From Chloroflexota bacterium (GTDB lineage Bacteria > Chloroflexota > Dormibacteria > Dormibacterales > Dormibacteraceae), in the NCBI GenBank assembly GCA_005883575.1, contig VBFH01000071.1:1-34704 (forward strand): a DNA stretch of 34,704 bases, in the 5' to 3' direction. Positions within the stretch are counted from its first letter, which is position 1, and each line of letters starts with the position of its first letter. The position numbers and the translations under genes were made by a program. The notes below the pieces were generated by a model that saw only the letters and a list, made by a program, of their open reading frames with translations, was not told where the DNA came from and did no database searches. This document shows positions 11,523 through 25,215 of the stretch, in pieces.

Positions 11523-12059
11523 ATGGTGACTTCAATCGGTTTTGAGCCCCGGGTCGTCGATCTGAGGGACCGGACGAAAGTCCACCTCCGCCCGATCGCG
11601 CCCCAAGACGAGCCGCTGCTTCACGAGGCGGTCGCGGCGATGTCAGAGAGGACCGTCTACTTCAGGTTCTTCTCCCCGATCAAGCGGATGTCCGACGCGC
11701 TCGCGCACCGGCTCGCGGTCGTGGACTACAACGACAGATTTGCGCTCGTCGCCACCCACAAAGCGGCCTCGAAAGAGCGGATCGTCGGGGTGGCGCGGTA
11801 TGACCGGGCGCGCGCCACCGACGTGGCGGAGGTCGCCGTGGCCGTGATCGATGAGTTCCAGCGCCGCGGGCTGGGCAGCGTGCTGCTGGCGGAGCTGGCG
11901 CGAGTCGCGAGAGACCACGGCATCAAGACCTTCCAGCTGATCGTGCTGCCGGAGAATCGCGAGATGCTCGCCCTGCTGCGCAAGTTGGGCTGGATCCACC
12001 AGGCGAAGGTGGTCGGCGGCGTGTACGAGATCTCGTTCGACATTCCCGAGACCGCATGA
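11523..12059 (+). CDS. GNAT acetyltransferase (Pat-like catalytic domain)
   Basis: 178 residues, a single GNAT domain. Acetyl-CoA pyrophosphate loop Q113-R-R-G-L-G118. The N-terminal block (L-R-P-I at 22-25, then V-Y-F-R-F-F-S-P near 45-52) resembles the catalytic domain of Pat/PatZ-type protein lysine acetyltransferases, but no cAMP-binding or acyl-CoA-synthetase-like domain is attached. Protein acetylation is a reasonable guess, not a demonstrated role. Its stop overlaps the LysE-type exporter start (ATGA), so the two are co-translated. Confidence 0.88.
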   Translation: MVTSIGFEPRVVDLRDRTKVHLRPIAPQDEPLLHEAVAAMSERTVYFRFFSPIKRMSDALAHRLAVVDYNDRFALVATHKAASKERIVGVARYDRARATDVAEVAVAVIDEFQRRGLGSVLLAELARVARDHGIKTFQLIVLPENREMLALLRKLGWIHQAKVVGGVYEISFDIPETA

Positions 12060-12868: not shown

Positions 12869-13648
12869 CTAGCCCCAGACGAACTCTGTGCACAGGTAGT
12901 CGACCTCCTGGCCTTCGGCAAGGCCGTTGGGAAAATTCTTGGTGTCGGCCGGGTCGGAGGCAAACACCACCACGGTGACGCTGTGCTGGGTGGCGGCGAT
13001 GATCCCGATCCGGACCCTGGTCGCGGTCTGCGAGGTGCCCACCAGGTTGGCCGAGTAGACGGCGCCGACGCCCTGCACCTCCCCGATGTGCGCGCCCTTC
13101 AAGGGCTTGACCAGCGTCACATCCTGCCACTTCGCCGTCGACAGACCGGCCACGGTCGCCTGCAGCGCCTGGTCGGCAGATGTCGATTTGGACCCTGTGA
13201 CCTGGACGGTCCCCAACCTCGTCCCCAGCGTGATCCCGTTGGCGTCCTTTTGGCGCACCGTCCACCGCGACGAATAGTTGACCTGGAAGTCGTAAGCGGC
13301 GCTTCGGAACGATGCTTCCTCCGGCAGCGGCGAGATGAACTTCGGCGCGCAGTTCACGGTGCAGGGCGGATGGCTGTTGCGCGCGAACTGCGAGACGGCG
13401 ATCCCGCCGACGACAAGCGCCACCGCGATGAGGACCGCGATCAGGACGCCGGCGATCAACACAGGTGCGAGCTTCGCCTGGCCCAGCGTGGGATAGGTGG
13501 CCGGCGGCGCCGGCGAATAGCGGTACACGGGCGGTGGGGCGACGGCCTGAAGCAGCACTGGTGTCCCGCATGTCCCGCAGAAGCTCGCGCCCGGTGGGAG
13601 GCGAGCGCCGCATCGGCCGCAATGGCGCACTGGCGCTGCGACCGCCAT
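12869..13648 (-). CDS. Zinc-ribbon single-pass membrane protein, unknown function
   Basis: 259 residues. N-terminal zinc ribbon with C10-x2-C13 and C24-x2-C27, a Pro/Tyr-rich linker, one membrane helix at ~61-86, then an extracytoplasmic domain of ~170 residues with C-T-V-N-C just after the helix and a Y-x-F-x-V-x-Y-x-S-x-W start. The ectodomain is not recognised with confidence; its pattern recalls small lipoprotein-like beta domains. The ATG at 13648 has GGGAGGGG just upstream and overlaps the stop of the PrsW-like gene by one base (TGATG). It is the last gene of a five-gene overlapping operon. The longer upstream frame is a shadow of the PrsW-like gene. Confidence 0.8.
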   Translation of the reverse strand: MAVAAPVRHCGRCGARLPPGASFCGTCGTPVLLQAVAPPPVYRYSPAPPATYPTLGQAKLAPVLIAGVLIAVLIAVALVVGGIAVSQFARNSHPPCTVNCAPKFISPLPEEASFRSAAYDFQVNYSSRWTVRQKDANGITLGTRLGTVQVTGSKSTSADQALQATVAGLSTAKWQDVTLVKPLKGAHIGEVQGVGAVYSANLVGTSQTATRVRIGIIAATQHSVTVVVFASDPADTKNFPNGLAEGQEVDYLCTEFVWG

Positions 13649-14781
13649 CACACCCCTCCCGCGAGCCGGATCCGATGTTGTTTCGGCGCCGCCGCCCGTG
13701 CCGCCCCGCACGACGGGCAAAACGCCATCGTCGGCACCACCCGATGACACTCCGGGCATGGCGCGTCGAGTCCGATTTCGTGCTCGACTCCCTCGACGAG
13801 CAGTGCGTCGTGGATCACCAGGCGCACATACAAAAGAAGGACGGCGGTCGTTGCGGCGAGGATCACGAAGTCGACGATTAGGTCGTCCACCAGAAACGCC
13901 ATGACCCCCAGCGCGATCTGGACTCCGAATGCAACCACCAGGGCGAACAGGATGCTCGAGTGCCACCTGCGCCCGGCCTGCCGCCGGTCATAGCGGTGCA
14001 GCCAGAGGGCCGCGGTCACCAGCGCGGTGGTACAGGCATTGATCAGGGATACGAACAGTCCGGCGCGCGTCAGGCGCAGGCCCCAGTCGAGGGGCGATCC
14101 CGCCGCGACGAGGGGCCCGGCGAGCAGCGGCCAGAAAGCGGTGAGGGAGCTCGCGAGGGTGAATCCAAGGGCCGACGCGGCGCCGAATGTCAAACCGTCG
14201 AGCGGTTCCCGGAACCTGCCTCGGATGATGTAGAGAAGCAGAGGGCCTCCGAGCATCAGCGCCTGCGCGAGCACAGGTATCGCGACGGCGGCGAGCCCGA
14301 AAGAGGCGTCACGATCGCCGGTCAGGATCAGCTGCGCCAGGGCTCCGCCGGTGACGCTCGTGAAGACGATTCCGAGCACCGCGCCAATCACCATGGTGGC
14401 GCCGACCACCAGCCACGGTTCGTCTTCGTAGATCTCGACCTCGTAGAGGTACAACAGATAAAGGACGGGCAGCACAAACACGGCCGCGGCCGTCGCGGGG
14501 GCGAAGAGATGCAGCGCGGCGAGCATCACGACCACAGCCCCACCTGCGACCAGCGCCACCCGAAACGGTCCGCTCCGGCGGTGGGGTAGGGCTGGAAACA
14601 AGGTCGAGATGATCGACAGATGGGCGACCCGCTCCGCCGGCACCGCAGTGTAGGCGTTCGTCCTCCTCGTGCTGCCGATCGTCAGGTGCGCGCCGCAGTG
14701 GCCGCAGAAGTCGCCCGAGGGCACAGACGAGCCGCAGTGAGGGCACGTGACGAGCGAAGGACCTTCTGCCTGGTCCGTCAT
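13648..14781 (-). CDS. PrsW-like polytopic membrane protein with N- and C-terminal zinc ribbons
   Basis: 377 residues. N-terminal zinc ribbon C13/C16/C26/C29, about nine membrane helices, and a second zinc ribbon at the C-terminus with C342/C345/C355/C358. The membrane core resembles PrsW intramembrane proteases: E-I-Y-E-D-E-P-W at 116-123 and E-P-L-D-G-L-T-F-G-A-A near 192-202. However, the expected E-E-x-x-K segment between them is replaced by Glu-free A-I-P-V-L-A-Q-A-L, and the later catalytic His region reads I-N-A-C-T-T. It may therefore be a non-proteolytic relative. The ATG at 14781 follows AAAGGTGG and overlaps the sedolisin stop (ATGA). Genetic coupling to a protease and a second zinc-ribbon membrane protein suggests a shared envelope complex (inference). 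Confidence 0.75.
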   Translation of the reverse strand: MTDQAEGPSLVTCPHCGSSVPSGDFCGHCGAHLTIGSTRRTNAYTAVPAERVAHLSIISTLFPALPHRRSGPFRVALVAGGAVVVMLAALHLFAPATAAAVFVLPVLYLLYLYEVEIYEDEPWLVVGATMVIGAVLGIVFTSVTGGALAQLILTGDRDASFGLAAVAIPVLAQALMLGGPLLLYIIRGRFREPLDGLTFGAASALGFTLASSLTAFWPLLAGPLVAAGSPLDWGLRLTRAGLFVSLINACTTALVTAALWLHRYDRRQAGRRWHSSILFALVVAFGVQIALGVMAFLVDDLIVDFVILAATTAVLLLYVRLVIHDALLVEGVEHEIGLDAPCPECHRVVPTMAFCPSCGAARAAAPKQHRIRLAGGV

Positions 14782-16382
14782 CCGCCGCCACCTTTGATGT
14801 AGCGGATCCAAGCCGCATCGAGCGCCGCCGCATCCATGCTGCCCCACCCGGTGGTGAAATCCCAGCCTGGCGCAGCCGTATAGCCGAGGTTGTTGCCCAC
14901 CGTCACGTCGTGGAACGGTTTGGGGTCGAGCTTGGACGAGTTCTCGCCGATCCAGTACAGGGCGGGATTGGCAAAACCGACCTGGCGCATCCCCTTCTTG
15001 GTCAGGTCCTGGTTGATCAATGCGGCCGTAGCCGCCCACAGCGGGGTCGCGGCCGACGTCCCTCCGACCTGGCCCTCCTTGCCGCCGAAAACGATATGGA
15101 AACCTGTCAGCGGGTCGGCGTCCGCGGCAACATCGGGCACCTGCCTCAGGCCATGGCCCGCGGCCAGTGATTCGTTCCTCTGATAGTCCGGCTCGGGGTA
15201 GAAGACGCTCGCGCCGCCCCCACTTCCACTCTGGTCGAGGGGACTGCCCCACGCGTATTCCTTGAAGTACACGCCTTGCTCCGACTCGAACACGCTCGTG
15301 CCGCCGACCGCGGTCACCGTCGGCAGGGTCGAGGGAAAGCTGGCGGCCGCGTCCTGGTCCTGGCCGCAGGTGAAGGCGCCGTTGTCGCCGCTGGCGACGA
15401 AATGCGAGATGCCTAGCGCGACCGCGCGGTCCTGGATGGACGCGTAGACGTTGCGAACACCGCTTGGAGTGTCGGGCTCGCACGAACCGAGGCTCTCCGA
15501 GATGACCGTGCCGAGATGCTCGCTCACCATCGCGTCGAACGCGCGATCGGTGTGGCCGAAGTCGCCGGCGGACAGGTAGACCACGAGCTTGGCGGCAGGT
15601 GCGATCGCATGAATGATCTCGAGGTCGAGCGCGGTCTCGCCCTGCGGCTTCTCCGGCGTGCCCCAACTCGGGTCGCGCTTGATGGTTAGCACCGGCGCAA
15701 AGGGCGGCAGCCCGAACTTCGAGGCGAAGCTGTCGAGGTCTTTGAGGTTGGGCAGATCATCGATCTCGGGAAGGATGATGGTCTGGCCGGCGCCGTCGAG
15801 GCCGGAGTCGCGAAGCGGCTTGAGGTTGTAGTAGCTCAAAACATCGGTTGGGGTCAGGCCGCCCGGACGCACCGCATAGCCTCGGGCGCGGCGGTAGTTG
15901 TCGAGGCCGCTGACATCGGCGGCAACCGCAGCCACCGCCTCGGGTAGAAGCGGCTGGTCCCGGGTGGCGTAGAAGGAGGTCCCGTCCGGCATCCGGTAGG
16001 CCTCGATCCGCACGCGCAGCAAGGCCGACACCGCTGGCGCTGGACCGTCCGCGGTGATGAGGCTGGAGGGCGGGCGCCAGCCTGCGCGCAGCCCGGAGCC
16101 GATCAGCACGGACACCGCTCGCTGCACGAGCGACTGGTCGGGGCTGCCCGATCGAAGTCCGAAGTCGAGGCTGACAGTCGTCGTCTCGTCCGCCGGGCCC
16201 AGGTCGACGGCGCTCGCGATTGCCTGCGCCAGGGTCGGAGGAGGCCTGGGGACGGAGATCGGGTTTCCGCTCCCCACTTGCTGGGGAGGCTCAGGATGGG
16301 CGCTTACACAGGCCGACAACGCCACGGCGACGCACGCGAACGCCGCCGCAGCCAGCCGGAACTTGTGGAGGGCATTTTTCAC
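14778..16382 (-). CDS. Sedolisin (S53 family) serine-carboxyl protease, lipoprotein form
   Basis: 534 residues from a GTG at 16382 that overlaps the upstream GNAT stop (GTGA). The N-terminus K-N-A-L-H-K-F-R, hydrophobic stretch and lipobox L-S-A-C25 indicate a lipoprotein. A prodomain spans ~35-175. The catalytic domain has E249 and D253 (E-T-A-L-D), oxyanion D333 (S-G-D-N-G) and nucleophile S443 (G-G-T-S-A-A-T-P), with the C-terminal Ca2+ site at D492 (H-D-V-T-x-G) and D508 (G-W-D-F-T-T-G-W-G). All catalytic residues are present. Family members are pro-enzymes that self-activate at low pH. Membrane tethering and close coupling with the two zinc-ribbon membrane proteins suggest envelope proteolysis, not free secretion. 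Confidence 0.92.
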   Translation of the reverse strand: MKNALHKFRLAAAAFACVAVALSACVSAHPEPPQQVGSGNPISVPRPPPTLAQAIASAVDLGPADETTTVSLDFGLRSGSPDQSLVQRAVSVLIGSGLRAGWRPPSSLITADGPAPAVSALLRVRIEAYRMPDGTSFYATRDQPLLPEAVAAVAADVSGLDNYRRARGYAVRPGGLTPTDVLSYYNLKPLRDSGLDGAGQTIILPEIDDLPNLKDLDSFASKFGLPPFAPVLTIKRDPSWGTPEKPQGETALDLEIIHAIAPAAKLVVYLSAGDFGHTDRAFDAMVSEHLGTVISESLGSCEPDTPSGVRNVYASIQDRAVALGISHFVASGDNGAFTCGQDQDAAASFPSTLPTVTAVGGTSVFESEQGVYFKEYAWGSPLDQSGSGGGASVFYPEPDYQRNESLAAGHGLRQVPDVAADADPLTGFHIVFGGKEGQVGGTSAATPLWAATAALINQDLTKKGMRQVGFANPALYWIGENSSKLDPKPFHDVTVGNNLGYTAAPGWDFTTGWGSMDAAALDAAWIRYIKGGGG

Positions 16383-17256
16383 GGGAAGGTAGCTTCCCAG
16401 ACCTCGGCCTCCGCAGCCACCTCGAAACCGATCTTTCGATAGACGTCGTACGCCCGCATCGGGCTCCGGCCGTCCACATAGAGCGAAGCGTGCCGCGCCC
16501 CAGCGCCCCGCAGGCGCCGCAACAAGTCGGCCACCAGCCAGGTCGCAAGTCCTCGCCTGCGGTGCGCAAGCAGCGTCCCGACCGAGCTGACAAGGCCCAC
16601 CGGCTGTGGTCTTGGATCCTCGCCGTAGTCCTCGACCTCGCCGATCGCCATCGCCGCCGGCGAACGACCGGCGGAGGTGACGGCCATGAGGCACAGAGCC
16701 GGCGTCCGATCGCCGACGATCTCTCCTTCGCCGCGTGGCGCAAACCGCCAGTGATCGGCGAAGGTGCGATTGAACATGTGCTCCCAGGATCCTGGCGGCA
16801 TCGTCGTCGCGTCCGCCAACTCATAACCCGGGACCGCTCCGCTCCGCGGCAGGTCGTCGATGCCCCGGTCCATCCGCCACCAGGGCCGCACCAGCTCCAG
16901 GCCCACGTCTCCGAGGCGATGGCCGCGGCCTTTGCCGACAAACACCTGGGCGACGGAACGCCGGCCGCCCGCGAGAGTTGGACGCCCCACCTCGCGAGCT
17001 CGACGAACAGGTCGGGTTCGCCGGCCGCGTAGACGTTGGTCAGGATCCCATCCGGCGAGGAGCGGCTCATCACGAGCACGGAGCCGACGATCCGGCCGTC
17101 GCTTTCGACGACGCGCGACTTCGCCTCCCAATCGAAGCGCCCGAGCATCCGCCGCAGCGATCTCTCGTTGGGCAGCATATCCTGGCGTCCTTCCGCCACC
17201 TCCCTTCGCCATAGCTCCATGAGGCGGGGAATGTCTTCCTGGCTGCCGGGCCTCAT
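16379..17256 (-). pseudogene. Double-GNAT acetyltransferase, interrupted by a frameshift
   Basis: The N-terminal half (from ATG 17256, M-R-P-G-S-Q-E-D-I-P-R-L) is coding-like until about A-A-G-V-P-S near 16955. The C-terminal half (V-A-Q-V-F-V-G-K-G onward) continues in another frame to the stop at 16379. The jump equals one missing base (or two extra) between about 16945 and 16975. Restored length is about 292 residues with two GNAT domains, as in MshD-like proteins. The second domain has an acetyl-CoA loop R-R-R-G-L-A and ends A-Y-D-V-Y-R-K-I-G-F. Both ends keep tight overlaps: ATGA with the CDF stop and GTGA into the sedolisin. No classical slippery heptamer is visible, so a recent mutation or a sequencing error is likelier than programmed frameshifting. 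Confidence 0.75.
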
Positions 17257-18626
17257 GCCGTCACGCGCGTGACGACCTCGTGCGTTTCGGGAATTTCGCG
17301 GCGAATCATCTCCTCGAGCTCGCTCTCGATCCGATGCGCGTGCTCCAGGCTGATCTCACCTGAGACTTCGGCCACGACGTGAGCGTGGATCTGGCCGTGG
17401 CGATCGCTCAGCTCGACGTCCGAGCACCGCTTGACCTCGAGATGCGACTCGACGACGGCGCGGATTCGCGTCGCAAGGTGCGCATTGCGGGCAGTCACAT
17501 CCTCGCCCGGGACGAAGTCGGGATCCATCGGCTCGAGGTGGATGTCGATACGCGTCACATCGGGCAGCTCGGCGCGAATCGACTGCTCGAGAGCGCGACT
17601 CGTCTTCGACGCCTCAGCCAGGGTCTCGTCACCGGGCAGCTTCGCATGCATGGTCAGGTGGAGCGACCCATCGGCCTCTCTTTCGACAGTGACGTTGTGC
17701 AGGTCGCGCACGCCCCCGTTTCGGGCAGCCGCCGCGTGGATGCGCTCGACCAGATCGCCTCGCTGCTCCTGACCCTCGACCGCGACCGCCAGGTCGAGGC
17801 GTGGCAGGACCCCTCGAGCCTTCTCCTTGACGTCCTTGACGAGCGCGCTTGCGGCCTCGACCGACAGCATTCGCCCGGTCGCGATGCTGGAGTCCCCGAT
17901 CAGGTTGGGGCCGGACCGGCGCACTCGGACGGACCGCACCTCTCGCACCCCATCAACGGCCTGGATCGCCTCGCGTAGCTGTTCTTCGGCGCCGGCCGGC
18001 GCGCGGTCGATCAAGATGTCGCCTGAGCGCCACGCCAGGAGTCCCGCTGCTCGGGCGACGATGCCCGCAACGAGCAGCGCAGCGACCGAGTCGGCCCAGC
18101 TGAGCCCCAATCGCACGCCGATCAGTCCGGCGATCACACCCAGCGTGGCGAGCACATCGGAGAGGCGGTTGGTGGCGTCCGCGAGCATGGCTTCGCTCGA
18201 CGCCTGGCGGCCAACGCGCCGCAGTATCGCTCCGCGTGCGCCTTCGATCACGAGTGTCGCGATCAGGAGCGCGAATGCGTAGCCGGCGGGGTTGACAACT
18301 CCGCCTCCGGCACCAAGGCGGCGGATGGCCTCGAAAGCGATCAGCGCCGCCGTGACCAGCAGCAGAACGCCCTCGGCGAACGCGGCCAGGTTCTCGGTCC
18401 GGCCATGACCGTAGGGGTGCTCGGGGTCGGCCGGCTTGCGCGAGGTACGCAGCGCCACGAGCGTGAAACCGCTTGCGGCGAGGTCGAGAAATGAGTGCAC
18501 GGCCTCGCTGAGGATCCCCAGGCTGCCGGTGAGAATCCCGACTACGACCTTGCCCAGGACAAGACAGACACCGATGACCACCGAGCCGAGCGCGACGAGC
18601 TCTGGTCGCTGCTCTAGCCGCTTCAC
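17253..18626 (-). CDS. Cation diffusion facilitator with three C-terminal domains
   Basis: 457 residues versus ~300 for standard CDF proteins. Six membrane helices lie in the first ~205 residues, with H44-x3-D48 in helix 2, D-P-E-H-P-Y-G-H-G at 66-74, and N152-x3-D156 in helix 5, where zinc transporters usually have H-x3-D. The rest looks like three tandem ferredoxin-like cytoplasmic modules (about 210-290, 300-375, 385-457), each with a V-x-x-I-D/H-x-H/V-E-type strand pattern. It exports divalent cations by proton exchange; the Asn substitution makes the metal uncertain. GTG 18626 is preceded by TAAAGT at 6 nt, suggesting leaderless transcription. It is the first gene of the five-gene operon. 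Confidence 0.9.
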   Translation of the reverse strand: MKRLEQRPELVALGSVVIGVCLVLGKVVVGILTGSLGILSEAVHSFLDLAASGFTLVALRTSRKPADPEHPYGHGRTENLAAFAEGVLLLVTAALIAFEAIRRLGAGGGVVNPAGYAFALLIATLVIEGARGAILRRVGRQASSEAMLADATNRLSDVLATLGVIAGLIGVRLGLSWADSVAALLVAGIVARAAGLLAWRSGDILIDRAPAGAEEQLREAIQAVDGVREVRSVRVRRSGPNLIGDSSIATGRMLSVEAASALVKDVKEKARGVLPRLDLAVAVEGQEQRGDLVERIHAAAARNGGVRDLHNVTVEREADGSLHLTMHAKLPGDETLAEASKTSRALEQSIRAELPDVTRIDIHLEPMDPDFVPGEDVTARNAHLATRIRAVVESHLEVKRCSDVELSDRHGQIHAHVVAEVSGEISLEHAHRIESELEEMIRREIPETHEVVTRVTA

Positions 18627-18699: not shown

Positions 18700-18718
18700 T
18701 TAGGAGGTGCGTGGCAAC

Positions 18719-19189
18719 TTGAGCATCACGTGGTGGAGCCCAAGCGCGGATATGCGGAGCGCGGCGCGGGCCATGGACCGTCTGATCGAGCAGTTCTTCG
18801 GGGAGCAGGTGCCCGACAGCACCAATTCCCAGAACCCGCCGACCTACTACCTTCCGGTCGATATCTTCGAAACCGATGAGGCCTACACGCTCGTGGCCTC
18901 GGTGCCCGGATTCAAGGAGGACCAGGTCGAGGTCACGTTCGAGGACGAAATCCTGACCATCAAGGCCAACGCCGAGGGGCACAAGCTCCCTGGTCGCTGG
19001 CTGCGCCAGGAGCGGCCGTATGGGTCGTTCGTCCGTCGGCTGGAAGTTCCGGCACAGGTCGAGACGGCCAAGATCGGCGCCCACTTCGACAACGGCGAGC
19101 TGACGATCACGATTCCAAAGACCGCCAAGCCGAAGCCGGTCAAGATCCAGATCGGAACCGGTAAGAAAGAGCTGGCGGCGAAGGCGTAA
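18719..19189 (+). CDS. Hsp20 / alpha-crystallin-type small heat shock protein
   Basis: 156 residues from TTG 18719; AGGAGG at 18702-18707 is 11 nt upstream. An in-frame GTG at 18707 lies inside that site and is rejected. The N-terminus S-I-T-W-W-S-P-S-A-D-M is typical of the family. The alpha-crystallin domain runs from P-V-D-I-F-E-T to N-G-E-L-T-I-T-I-P-K, including the conserved G-x-L strand. It is an ATP-independent holdase that keeps unfolded proteins soluble. Monocistronic: operator-like repeats upstream, strong terminator downstream. Confidence 0.95.
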   Translation: MSITWWSPSADMRSAARAMDRLIEQFFGEQVPDSTNSQNPPTYYLPVDIFETDEAYTLVASVPGFKEDQVEVTFEDEILTIKANAEGHKLPGRWLRQERPYGSFVRRLEVPAQVETAKIGAHFDNGELTITIPKTAKPKPVKIQIGTGKKELAAKA

Positions 19190-22595: not shown

Positions 22596-23621
22596 GTGGA
22601 GCAGGTGAGCACGAGCCACGCCCGGGGGAGCAGCGCCAGGCTGCGTCTCGGACTAGGCCTGACCCTGGCCATCCTCCTGATCGAGTTCGCCGGTGGGCTC
22701 CTGTCGCACTCCCTTGCGCTGCTGTCTGACGCCGGCCACGTCCTGACCGACGTTTTCGCTCTGGGCCTGGCCTGGTTTGCGGTCGAACAGTCGAAGAGAC
22801 CCGCTGACAAACGGCGCAGCTACGGCTATCACCGCGTCAGCATCCTTGCCGCCCTCATCAACGCGCTGACTTTGATCGTCATCGTGCTGGCCGTCACCTT
22901 CGAGGCCCTTCGGCGCTTGATGGCTCCAGAGCAGGTGCAGGGCGGGATCGTGATCGCCACCGCGCTGGTCGGGATTGCCATCAACGCCTTTGTCATCCTC
23001 ACCTTGCGTGGTGGCGGGGACAACCTGAACCTTCGCGCGGCGCTGCTGCATGTGACTGGCGACGTCGGGGCTTCGGTGGGCGTCATCGTCGCGGGCGCGG
23101 TCATCCTACTTACAGGCTGGCTGCCCATCGACCCGCTGCTGTCGCTCGCGATCGCTGCCCTGATCGCCTACGGTGCGTGGCAGATCATGCGCGAGACCGT
23201 CAACCTGCTCATGGAAGGCACGCCCGCGGGCATCGACCTCGGTGCGGTCACCAACGAGATACGCAAGACCGACCAGCTAACCGGCATGCACGACCTCCAC
23301 GTGTGGGCGCTCTCGTCCGACCAGACGGCGCTCAGCTGCCACGTCGTCATCGATGATGTCTCGCTTGGTGACGCGGAGCACGTCGTCCGTGACCTCGAAG
23401 GTCGCCTGTGCGAACGGTTCGCGATCGGACATACGACGATCCAGGTCGAGAGCTGCCACCCGTGCGGTGAGATCCACCATGGTGCCGGCGAGCACAATCA
23501 CCCGCACCAGCACGTCGTCTTGACCTCTACCTCGGCGCGACCAGCGCCTCCTCGCGCTGCAGGATCCTCCGCGCGACCGCGATCGCAGACGCGTAAGTCG
23601 AATCCATCCCCCGGTAGCTGA
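22596..23621 (+). CDS. CzcD-like cation diffusion facilitator
   Basis: 341 residues. Six helices with both zinc-binding pairs intact: H48-x3-D52 in helix 2 and H152-x3-D156 in helix 5. Y-G-Y-H-R follows helix 2, and there is a standard cytoplasmic dimer domain (L-H-V-W-A-L-S). A His-rich segment E-I-H-H-G-A-G-E-H-N-H-P-H-Q-H lies near the C-terminus. It exports Zn2+/Co2+/Cd2+ in exchange for protons. The last ~31 residues (from about L-T-S-T-S) are low-complexity Pro/Arg/Ser sequence lying antisense to the convergent gene, so they look like read-through to the next stop. GTG 22596 is used; a GTG at 22605 is also possible. Confidence 0.93.
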   Translation: MEQVSTSHARGSSARLRLGLGLTLAILLIEFAGGLLSHSLALLSDAGHVLTDVFALGLAWFAVEQSKRPADKRRSYGYHRVSILAALINALTLIVIVLAVTFEALRRLMAPEQVQGGIVIATALVGIAINAFVILTLRGGGDNLNLRAALLHVTGDVGASVGVIVAGAVILLTGWLPIDPLLSLAIAALIAYGAWQIMRETVNLLMEGTPAGIDLGAVTNEIRKTDQLTGMHDLHVWALSSDQTALSCHVVIDDVSLGDAEHVVRDLEGRLCERFAIGHTTIQVESCHPCGEIHHGAGEHNHPHQHVVLTSTSARPAPPRAAGSSARPRSQTRKSNPSPGS

Positions 23622-25215
23622 GCCCGCGGGCGCCCAGGGTTCGCGCCTGGGTGTACGGGGTGTCGGATGCGTAATGGACGATGCCGAGGTCGAAGTGGAC
23701 CTGAGCCATGTTGACGCTCTCGCCCACGGGGTAGCGATCGGGCTGGCCGATCTCATAGCAGGCGTCGAGATAAGGTCCGGCCTCCATCTCGACGACCGTG
23801 TAGCGGCCCTGGTAATAGAAGTCGAGGTAATCGCGGTTTTGCAGAAATGTGCCTCGTACCGTCACCGCGCGCTGGTTGTCGAGCGCTGATCCGTAAACCA
23901 GGTTCGGCTGCACGTCGGCCGCGGTGAAGCAGTTGTCGAGCCAGTACGTGTTTCCAGAGTGCTCGTTGTAGACGACGTTCGGGATCATCACGTCGCCGAC
24001 GTCGGCATTCAAGGTTGCGGCCTTGCCCAGCACGTATACGCCCGCTACCCAGCCCGCCTGCTCGGCGACCTGGCGGAGGATGTGGTAGGCGGCTTCGCCT
24101 AACGGGTAGTCGACGTTGACGATGCACGCGTCGGACTCGTGAAGCTTTTGCCGGTCGACGGCTCCGACACGGGGATCGATCGCGTCCGGATCCAGCTTGG
24201 ACAGCATGAAAACCTGTGTGGCGGAGTCGACGCCTGTGCCGCGCGCCGGGATGTGGCGCACTCCGTTTGCCGCCTCGAGCTCGGCGCGCCACTTGCGCAG
24301 GCGCTCCCGATCCGGACTCGCGTCGAAGACCTGCCGCGCCCCGTAGTAGAGCCAGTTCTGGCGCGAGGCCCGACTGTGACCCGCCTCCAGCTTGCGCAGC
24401 TCGGCGTCGAGGTCCCGATCGGTCCGGCCGATCCAGTCGACGATCTCTCGCTCGATCCGTCGCGCAAGTCCGGTCAGGACGTTGACCAGGCTGTGCGCGT
24501 TCGAGGAGACGAAGTAGATCGGCGCATCGCGCGCCCCCAGCTCATCCATCGCGGCCGCGATGGGCAGCCACCACCGGCTCGCGTTGCGCGCGAACCCGAG
24601 GTGACTTCCGCCGATGAGCCTGAGCACGATCCGGCATTCGTCGCGCTTGATCGCTGCGAGGTTTGCGTCGAAGCTGTCGCCCCAGGCGTCGTGGAGCCGG
24701 CGCCAGTCGTCCTGGGTCGCGCCCGCGGCCTGCCGCGCCTCCTCGTCTGAGAGCCCTACCTCCTGCAGCGAGCGGTGCAGCTTGTTCCATTCGATCTGAA
24801 ACGCGACCAGGGTGGGCACGAGGTCGTCGATGTCCGAGGTCGAGGCGATCAGCACCGCGAGCGTGTTCTTGCCGTCGTGGTACCAGCGGCGCCGCCGCGC
24901 GGGGGCTTTGACTGCCTCCCAGCTCATGATGTCGGGGCCGAGCACGGCCCGAAAACCCTGCGGGCTCTGGCCCATGATCACCCGGCGGCAGCGAATGATG
25001 GCGGCCGGCAGACGCCTGACGGTGTAGAGAAGAGCGCCCATATCGGACTGCGGCTGCGCGGCCAGCGGGTGAAGGACCGAGCCCATGCCCAGGTGGGCCT
25101 GAACCAGGGACTCGACCTTGATCTCTCCGGAGCTCTGAAGCATGGTGTTGTAGGTCCGGACGTAGAGCTCGACGGCGTGCTTGCCGCTCCAGCCCGAGGT
25201 CGGCGGCGCTTCCAT
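23527..25215 (-). CDS. Large protein with nucleoside-phosphorylase-like C-terminal domain
   Basis: 562 residues, not firmly recognised; it may belong to a domain-of-unknown-function family (DUF6909-like, from memory). Residues 1-~350 are mostly helical, without signal peptide or membrane segment. Residues ~360-560 carry marks of the nucleoside phosphorylase/hydrolase fold: N-V-D-Y-P-L-G-E at 367-374, V-Y-V-L-G-K-A near 393-399, D-V-G-D-V-M-I-P at 405-412, and V-E-M-E-A-G at 475-480, the place where that fold holds the ribose hydroxyls. It might process a nucleoside or nucleotide-like ligand; this is inference. ATG 25215 is preceded by TATAGT at 6 nt. Its 3' end overlaps the CzcD-like gene by 95 bp on the other strand. 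Divergent from the secreted-protein gene. Confidence 0.75.
   Translation of the reverse strand: MEAPPTSGWSGKHAVELYVRTYNTMLQSSGEIKVESLVQAHLGMGSVLHPLAAQPQSDMGALLYTVRRLPAAIIRCRRVIMGQSPQGFRAVLGPDIMSWEAVKAPARRRRWYHDGKNTLAVLIASTSDIDDLVPTLVAFQIEWNKLHRSLQEVGLSDEEARQAAGATQDDWRRLHDAWGDSFDANLAAIKRDECRIVLRLIGGSHLGFARNASRWWLPIAAAMDELGARDAPIYFVSSNAHSLVNVLTGLARRIEREIVDWIGRTDRDLDAELRKLEAGHSRASRQNWLYYGARQVFDASPDRERLRKWRAELEAANGVRHIPARGTGVDSATQVFMLSKLDPDAIDPRVGAVDRQKLHESDACIVNVDYPLGEAAYHILRQVAEQAGWVAGVYVLGKAATLNADVGDVMIPNVVYNEHSGNTYWLDNCFTAADVQPNLVYGSALDNQRAVTVRGTFLQNRDYLDFYYQGRYTVVEMEAGPYLDACYEIGQPDRYPVGESVNMAQVHFDLGIVHYASDTPYTQARTLGARGLSYRGMDSTYASAIAVARRILQREEALVAPR

Follow-up and report, generated by a model that had tools for sequence, protein, structure and literature searches.

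The functional unit at this locus consists of three genes, not five. These encode a sedolisin lipoprotein, a PrsW-like membrane protein and a zinc-ribbon membrane protein (ZnR). The three are conserved as a unit, the sedolisin aligns with an intact catalytic triad, and the PrsW-like protein has lost the catalytic motifs of its family. The window referred to throughout is the whole stretch of DNA that was analysed (34,704 nucleotides), which belongs to a 3.6 Mb genome in 127 contigs.

Table 1. Features of the five-gene stretch within the window.
Feature	Position	Strand	Details
CDF cation efflux transporter	17253-18626	-	457 aa; PF01545 E 1.3e-45; neighbouring but separable module
GNAT acetyltransferase, two-domain	16379-17256	-	frame broken by a 1-nt deletion at about 16958; member of the separate CDF-GNAT pair
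Sedolisin (S53) lipoprotein	14778-16382	-	534 aa; match to kumamolisin 1t1e
PrsW-fold pseudoprotease	13648-14781	-	377 aa; PF13367 E 3.5e-6; motif comparison, dN/dS
ZnR protein	12869-13648	-	259 aa; alignment, AlphaFold2 model, Foldseek

On the minus strand the genes lie head to tail in the order CDF, GNAT, sedolisin, PrsW-like and ZnR, and the successive junctions overlap as ATGA, GTGA, ATGA and TGATG. This order and all four overlaps, from which the earlier note started, are present in the window and kept across divergent relatives. Junctions in relatives were tallied by eye using candidate start codons. By this count, a start codon lies at -4 or -1 at the CDF-GNAT junction in about 21 of 24 assessable loci, at the GNAT-sedolisin junction in about 23 of 26, at the sedolisin-PrsW junction in about 30 of 32, and at the PrsW-ZnR junction in nearly all. 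The N-termini of the PrsW-like proteins vary in length, yet the overlaps recur in relatives, which indicates that they are maintained. Overlaps are not rare in this region, as the adjacent GNAT/LysE pair also shares an ATGA (12056-12059). The genus and much of the family keep the order FUM-KCH-CDF-GNAT-SED-PRSW-ZNR, with LysE and a further GNAT after it. Ahead of the CDF gene, the window and one relative (L036) carry a divergent HSP20 gene (18707-19189 in the window) that is unmatched at this place in most other relatives. The window also holds a second CDF cation efflux gene on the opposite strand (22596-23621) and a full-length DUF6909 protein (23527-25215, E 5e-202), a member of a family without known function.

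The second gene had been described as a double GNAT. In the window it is not a single open frame: its N-terminal and C-terminal parts are in different frames, and alignment with relatives places one absent nucleotide at approximately 16958. In each of the compared relatives the two domains form one intact ORF. The window copy has a dN/dS of 0.17-0.20, compared to 0.25-0.28 among the intact relatives, and its downstream half is not evolving faster. Old decay is thereby ruled out; either the lesion arose recently by mutation or the assembly is in error here.

The distribution of the five genes separates them into two modules. A search of 42 family genomes found CDF in 39, and nine of the 39 (G020-G023, G025, G027, G032, G034 and G036) have CDF without a trio-type sedolisin or PrsW-like protein; in five genomes lacking the trio (G023, G025, G027, G034 and G036), CDF and GNAT are adjacent. 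In G046 and G052, in turn, the trio has no such CDF or GNAT with it, and the trio loci of families f17, f38 and f21 show no CDF match alongside. In G029 the trio is on contigs other than those of CDF and GNAT, and in four loci (L034, L043, L046 and L055) the GNAT between CDF and sedolisin is missing or a remnant. The trio sits in front of the CDF-GNAT pair only in the window's family. Conservation of the gene set among relatives, the check proposed previously, holds for the order and the overlaps, while the set itself splits into a CDF-GNAT module and the trio.

Trio-type sedolisin and PrsW-like proteins were compared across 81 relatives. Both were found in 31 genomes, the PrsW-like protein alone in none, the sedolisin alone in two and neither in 48. 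In the two sedolisin-only genomes (G002 and G031) the contigs end inside the sedolisin gene. These counts are inflated by the relatedness of the genomes, most of which are MAGs, and more weight is therefore placed on other families, gene orders, fusions and the sedolisin tree. The PrsW-like protein was found in eight genomes sampled from the phylum outside the class. In seven of the eight, a sedolisin adjoins the PrsW-like gene or is one gene off; the L106 contig ends within the third gene. The genomes outside the class encode 2-8 sedolisins each, and in seven the sedolisin beside the PrsW-like gene matches the trio profile better than any other in that genome. The order is SED-PRSW-ZNR in Dormibacteria and f17 and PRSW-ZNR-SED in f38 and f21. 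In two loci (L062 and L111) the PrsW-like and third proteins are fused as one polypeptide, in which the C-terminal zinc ribbon continues into a transmembrane helix and then the ectodomain; the L062 genome has 9% estimated contamination, which leaves its host in doubt. A tree of 61 sedolisins places the 20 linked sequences in one clade (local support 0.976) and the 41 solo sedolisins of the phylum outside it, some of them from the same genomes as linked ones. Where relatives are named, they are MAGs from soil belonging to Candidatus Dormiibacterota / Chloroflexi, and the one pattern-based scan of named genomes that reached outside the phylum returned Dormibacterota/Chloroflexi MAGs for every match. 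By the earlier note, a trio that never co-occurs elsewhere would have refuted its claim; the trio does co-occur, as a conserved unit across the phylum, and the claim withstood this check. This makes the shared pathway that had been read from the coupled genes likely for the trio, while CDF and GNAT stand apart as a pair of their own. The window's own genome also carries a PrsW-like gene (L002, C4:8150-9244) next to MsrA and directly followed by a zinc-ribbon membrane protein, with no sedolisin. The PrsW-ZnR pair thus predates the trio or occurs more widely than the trio does.

The sedolisin aligns with kumamolisin 1t1e (E 6e-73) at Glu249, Asp253 and Ser443, the predicted catalytic residues, and at the oxyanion Asp333. 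All four are invariant in 13 homologues, so the triad is judged intact from sequence. The window protein has the lipobox LSAC and most relatives also have a lipobox; the N-terminal segment of the L105, L107, L110 and L062 sedolisins is hydrophobic, with no clear lipobox Cys. Approximately 24 prodomain residues that are present in most relatives are missing from the sedolisins of the window, L033 and L035. An NCBIfam match of the sedolisin to mycosin was far below cut-off and was rejected.

The PrsW-like protein has approximately eight transmembrane helices and one C4 zinc ribbon at each end, both kept in all linked copies; together with the ribbon of the ZnR protein, this gives the three C4 ribbons on two membrane proteins that had been noted in the window. 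It belongs to PF13367 by score (27.1 bits against a cut-off of 23.5; 29.1 bits in the genome scan). The PrsW family is described with four motifs and eight helices (PMC3482391), and its catalytic motifs comprise EExxK, a His in TMH5 and HxxxD in TMH6 (PMC4602095). The canonical PrsW of the window's genome displays all four, as EELAK, FNFMES, GHATYTA and HFSWD. By motif comparison, EExxK, the motif-2 Glu, the TMH5 His and the TMH6 HxxxD are all absent from the window protein. The fourth motif falls in a gapped region of the alignment, and the TMH6 segment of the window protein has no His at all. EExxK and both His are absent in all linked copies examined, most of which read AQxLM at the first motif, and the motif-2 Glu is absent from all except L062. 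Unlinked paralogues such as L002 retain QEALK, FSVAE and a His (AH). A second PrsW-like gene is found within a few kb of the trio in L058 and L059 (G046 and G052), with motif 1 lost and the motif-2 Glu kept, possibly an intermediate stage of catalytic loss. The dN/dS of the PrsW-like protein against the window is 0.13-0.16, indicating strong purifying selection. Loss of the catalytic motifs under such selection identifies the protein as a pseudoprotease, which sets it apart from conventional processing proteases. The predicted model is of moderate confidence (mean pLDDT 74) and has no significant Foldseek match in the PDB (TMEM147, probability 0.84, E 1.2). Among PDB relatives, profiles of the PrsW-like and ZnR proteins returned only weak ribosomal zinc-ribbon matches, and NCBIfam has no model for either protein.

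The ZnR protein consists of a zinc ribbon, one transmembrane helix and an ectodomain with a conserved Cys pair (C96 and C100). The AlphaFold2 model of the ectodomain, mostly at pLDDT >75, has a PsbP/Mog1/LpqN-like fold, with Foldseek matches to PsbP, Mog1 and DcrB at E 8.5e-6 to 1e-3. In this model the conserved part of the third protein is the PsbP/LpqN-like ectodomain. The zinc ribbon is confined to some Dormibacteria and was not found in third proteins of the other families. In f38 the third protein has a lipobox-like motif and no zinc ribbon. The lipobox puts the conserved domain on the outside of the cell and, with the absence of the ribbon in other families, argues against a zinc-specific role.

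We consider it about an even chance (roughly 0.5) that these proteins form a complex in which a membrane-anchored acid protease is kept in place or under control by two partners, one a dead-protease scaffold and the other at the surface. The sedolisin would be active, anchored in the membrane and facing outward. The pseudoprotease, its zinc ribbons probably cytoplasmic, would most likely be the scaffold or assembly platform, and the ZnR protein, anchored with its PsbP/LpqN-like domain outward, most likely an adaptor or inhibitor. Together, both partners may retain the acid protease on the cell surface, mature it or keep it in check there, and the overlapping genes would couple synthesis of the three proteins. 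Tsi3, a member of the PsbP-like fold, binds and neutralises an extracytoplasmic enzyme, and a natural role would thus be to restrain the sedolisin close to the envelope of its own cell. The proposal draws on the conserved trio overlaps, the 31/0/2/48 co-occurrence, the two gene orders, the fusions, monophyly of the linked sedolisins, the intact triad, PrsW motif loss under purifying selection, the PsbP-like fold and the f38 lipobox. From anatomy and neighbourhood we infer the physical complex, its division of labour, its substrate and its pH optimum. However, a conserved neighbourhood can reflect shared regulation without contact, and sedolisins elsewhere work alone.

Other readings of the same genes were weighed against this scaffold. 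The PrsW-like protein and its partner may instead help the sedolisin fold or be exported, or import its peptide products, leaving its activity uncontrolled. A multi-helix membrane protein and an anchored protein always accompany one sedolisin clade, and PrsW domains have been proposed as protein-export conduits (PMC3482391). However, each sedolisin comes with a signal peptide and a prodomain of its own, solo sedolisins do without a partner, and no transporter motif was found; such an aid to secretion is possible but doubtful. A proteolytic relay appears less likely still. There, the sedolisin would be a site-1 protease outside the cytoplasm, and its cut in the ZnR ectodomain would re-set the cytoplasmic zinc ribbon as a signal. 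The topology of the window ZnR protein (cytoplasmic ribbon, transmembrane helix, ectodomain) suits a signalling protein, and the PrsW prototype cleaves an anti-sigma factor (PMC4602095). However, the lipoprotein-like, ribbonless third protein of f38 has no cytoplasmic part for release, and no sigma or anti-sigma gene was identified beside the trio within the window.

Two further readings are very improbable. One retains the PrsW-like protein as an enzyme with different residues, making the trio a proteolytic cascade. The protein is strongly conserved and its invariant polar residues include Glu114, Glu192, Asp195 and His324, but the missing motifs in all linked copies, with the second-motif Glu surviving only in L062, speak against it. 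The other is the metal-linked system for envelope stress or processing that the earlier note drew from all five genes. In most of the window's family, conserved overlaps do join the trio to CDF and GNAT. However, the phylogenetic profile gave separate presence/absence patterns for the trio and CDF rather than joint inheritance: CDF, often with GNAT, lacks the trio in nine family genomes, the trio is found elsewhere without the pair, and the ZnR ribbon is not conserved. The metal hypothesis was set aside on these grounds.

Within the open literature searched, no such system linking PrsW to a sedolisin, a pseudoprotease or a zinc ribbon turned up, nor did any earlier description of the trio. The trio links a protease from uncultured soil bacteria to partner proteins. 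The label 'PrsW family intramembrane metalloprotease', when given by profile alone, would mislead for such proteins. A conserved PrsW pseudoprotease of bacteria that goes with a single sedolisin clade would offer a compact three-gene system in which to study how such a protein governs an enzyme at the surface.

The sedolisin shares the catalytic Glu/Asp/Ser, oxyanion Asp, prodomain and C-terminal DVTxGxN-GWDxxTGWG region with kumamolisin (MEROPS S53), but the window's is lipoprotein-anchored, tied to two membrane partners and shortened in its prodomain. The ZnR ectodomain has the predicted fold of PsbP/Mog1/LpqN/DcrB-like proteins, several known members of which work outside the cytoplasm, but is only approximately 10% identical and has its own Cys pair (CTxNC / CPxNCPPP) and its own anchor. 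The PrsW-like protein has the multi-helix domain and the conserved LDGxxFGxxxxLGF and EP segments of the PrsW family (PF13367; B. subtilis PrsW). It differs in its lost catalytic motifs, the zinc ribbons at both ends and its sedolisin partner. Among relatives of intramembrane proteases, catalytically dead ones (iRhoms, APH-1 and TMEM147) are best known from eukaryotes. In nicastrin-APH-1 and nicalin-TMEM147 (BOS complex), the extracytoplasmic partner has a peptidase fold and is held by a membrane protein of the APH-1 fold (PMC7505659), and APH-1 belongs to the wider PrsW/CAAX-like fold superfamily (PMC4602095). As in gamma-secretase (APH-1/nicastrin) and TMEM147/nicalin, the trio pairs a non-catalytic membrane protein of PrsW/CAAX-like fold with an extracytoplasmic peptidase-fold protein, but here that partner is an intact, unrelated protease. 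Since the TMEM147 match is not significant, this comparison is an analogy and a lead rather than evidence of membership. Tentatively, the trio might be a bacterial counterpart of nicastrin-APH-1 and nicalin-TMEM147, with a dead PrsW-fold scaffold, an active acid protease and a PsbP-like subunit, that evolved within Chloroflexota/Dormibacterota from a PrsW-like protein.
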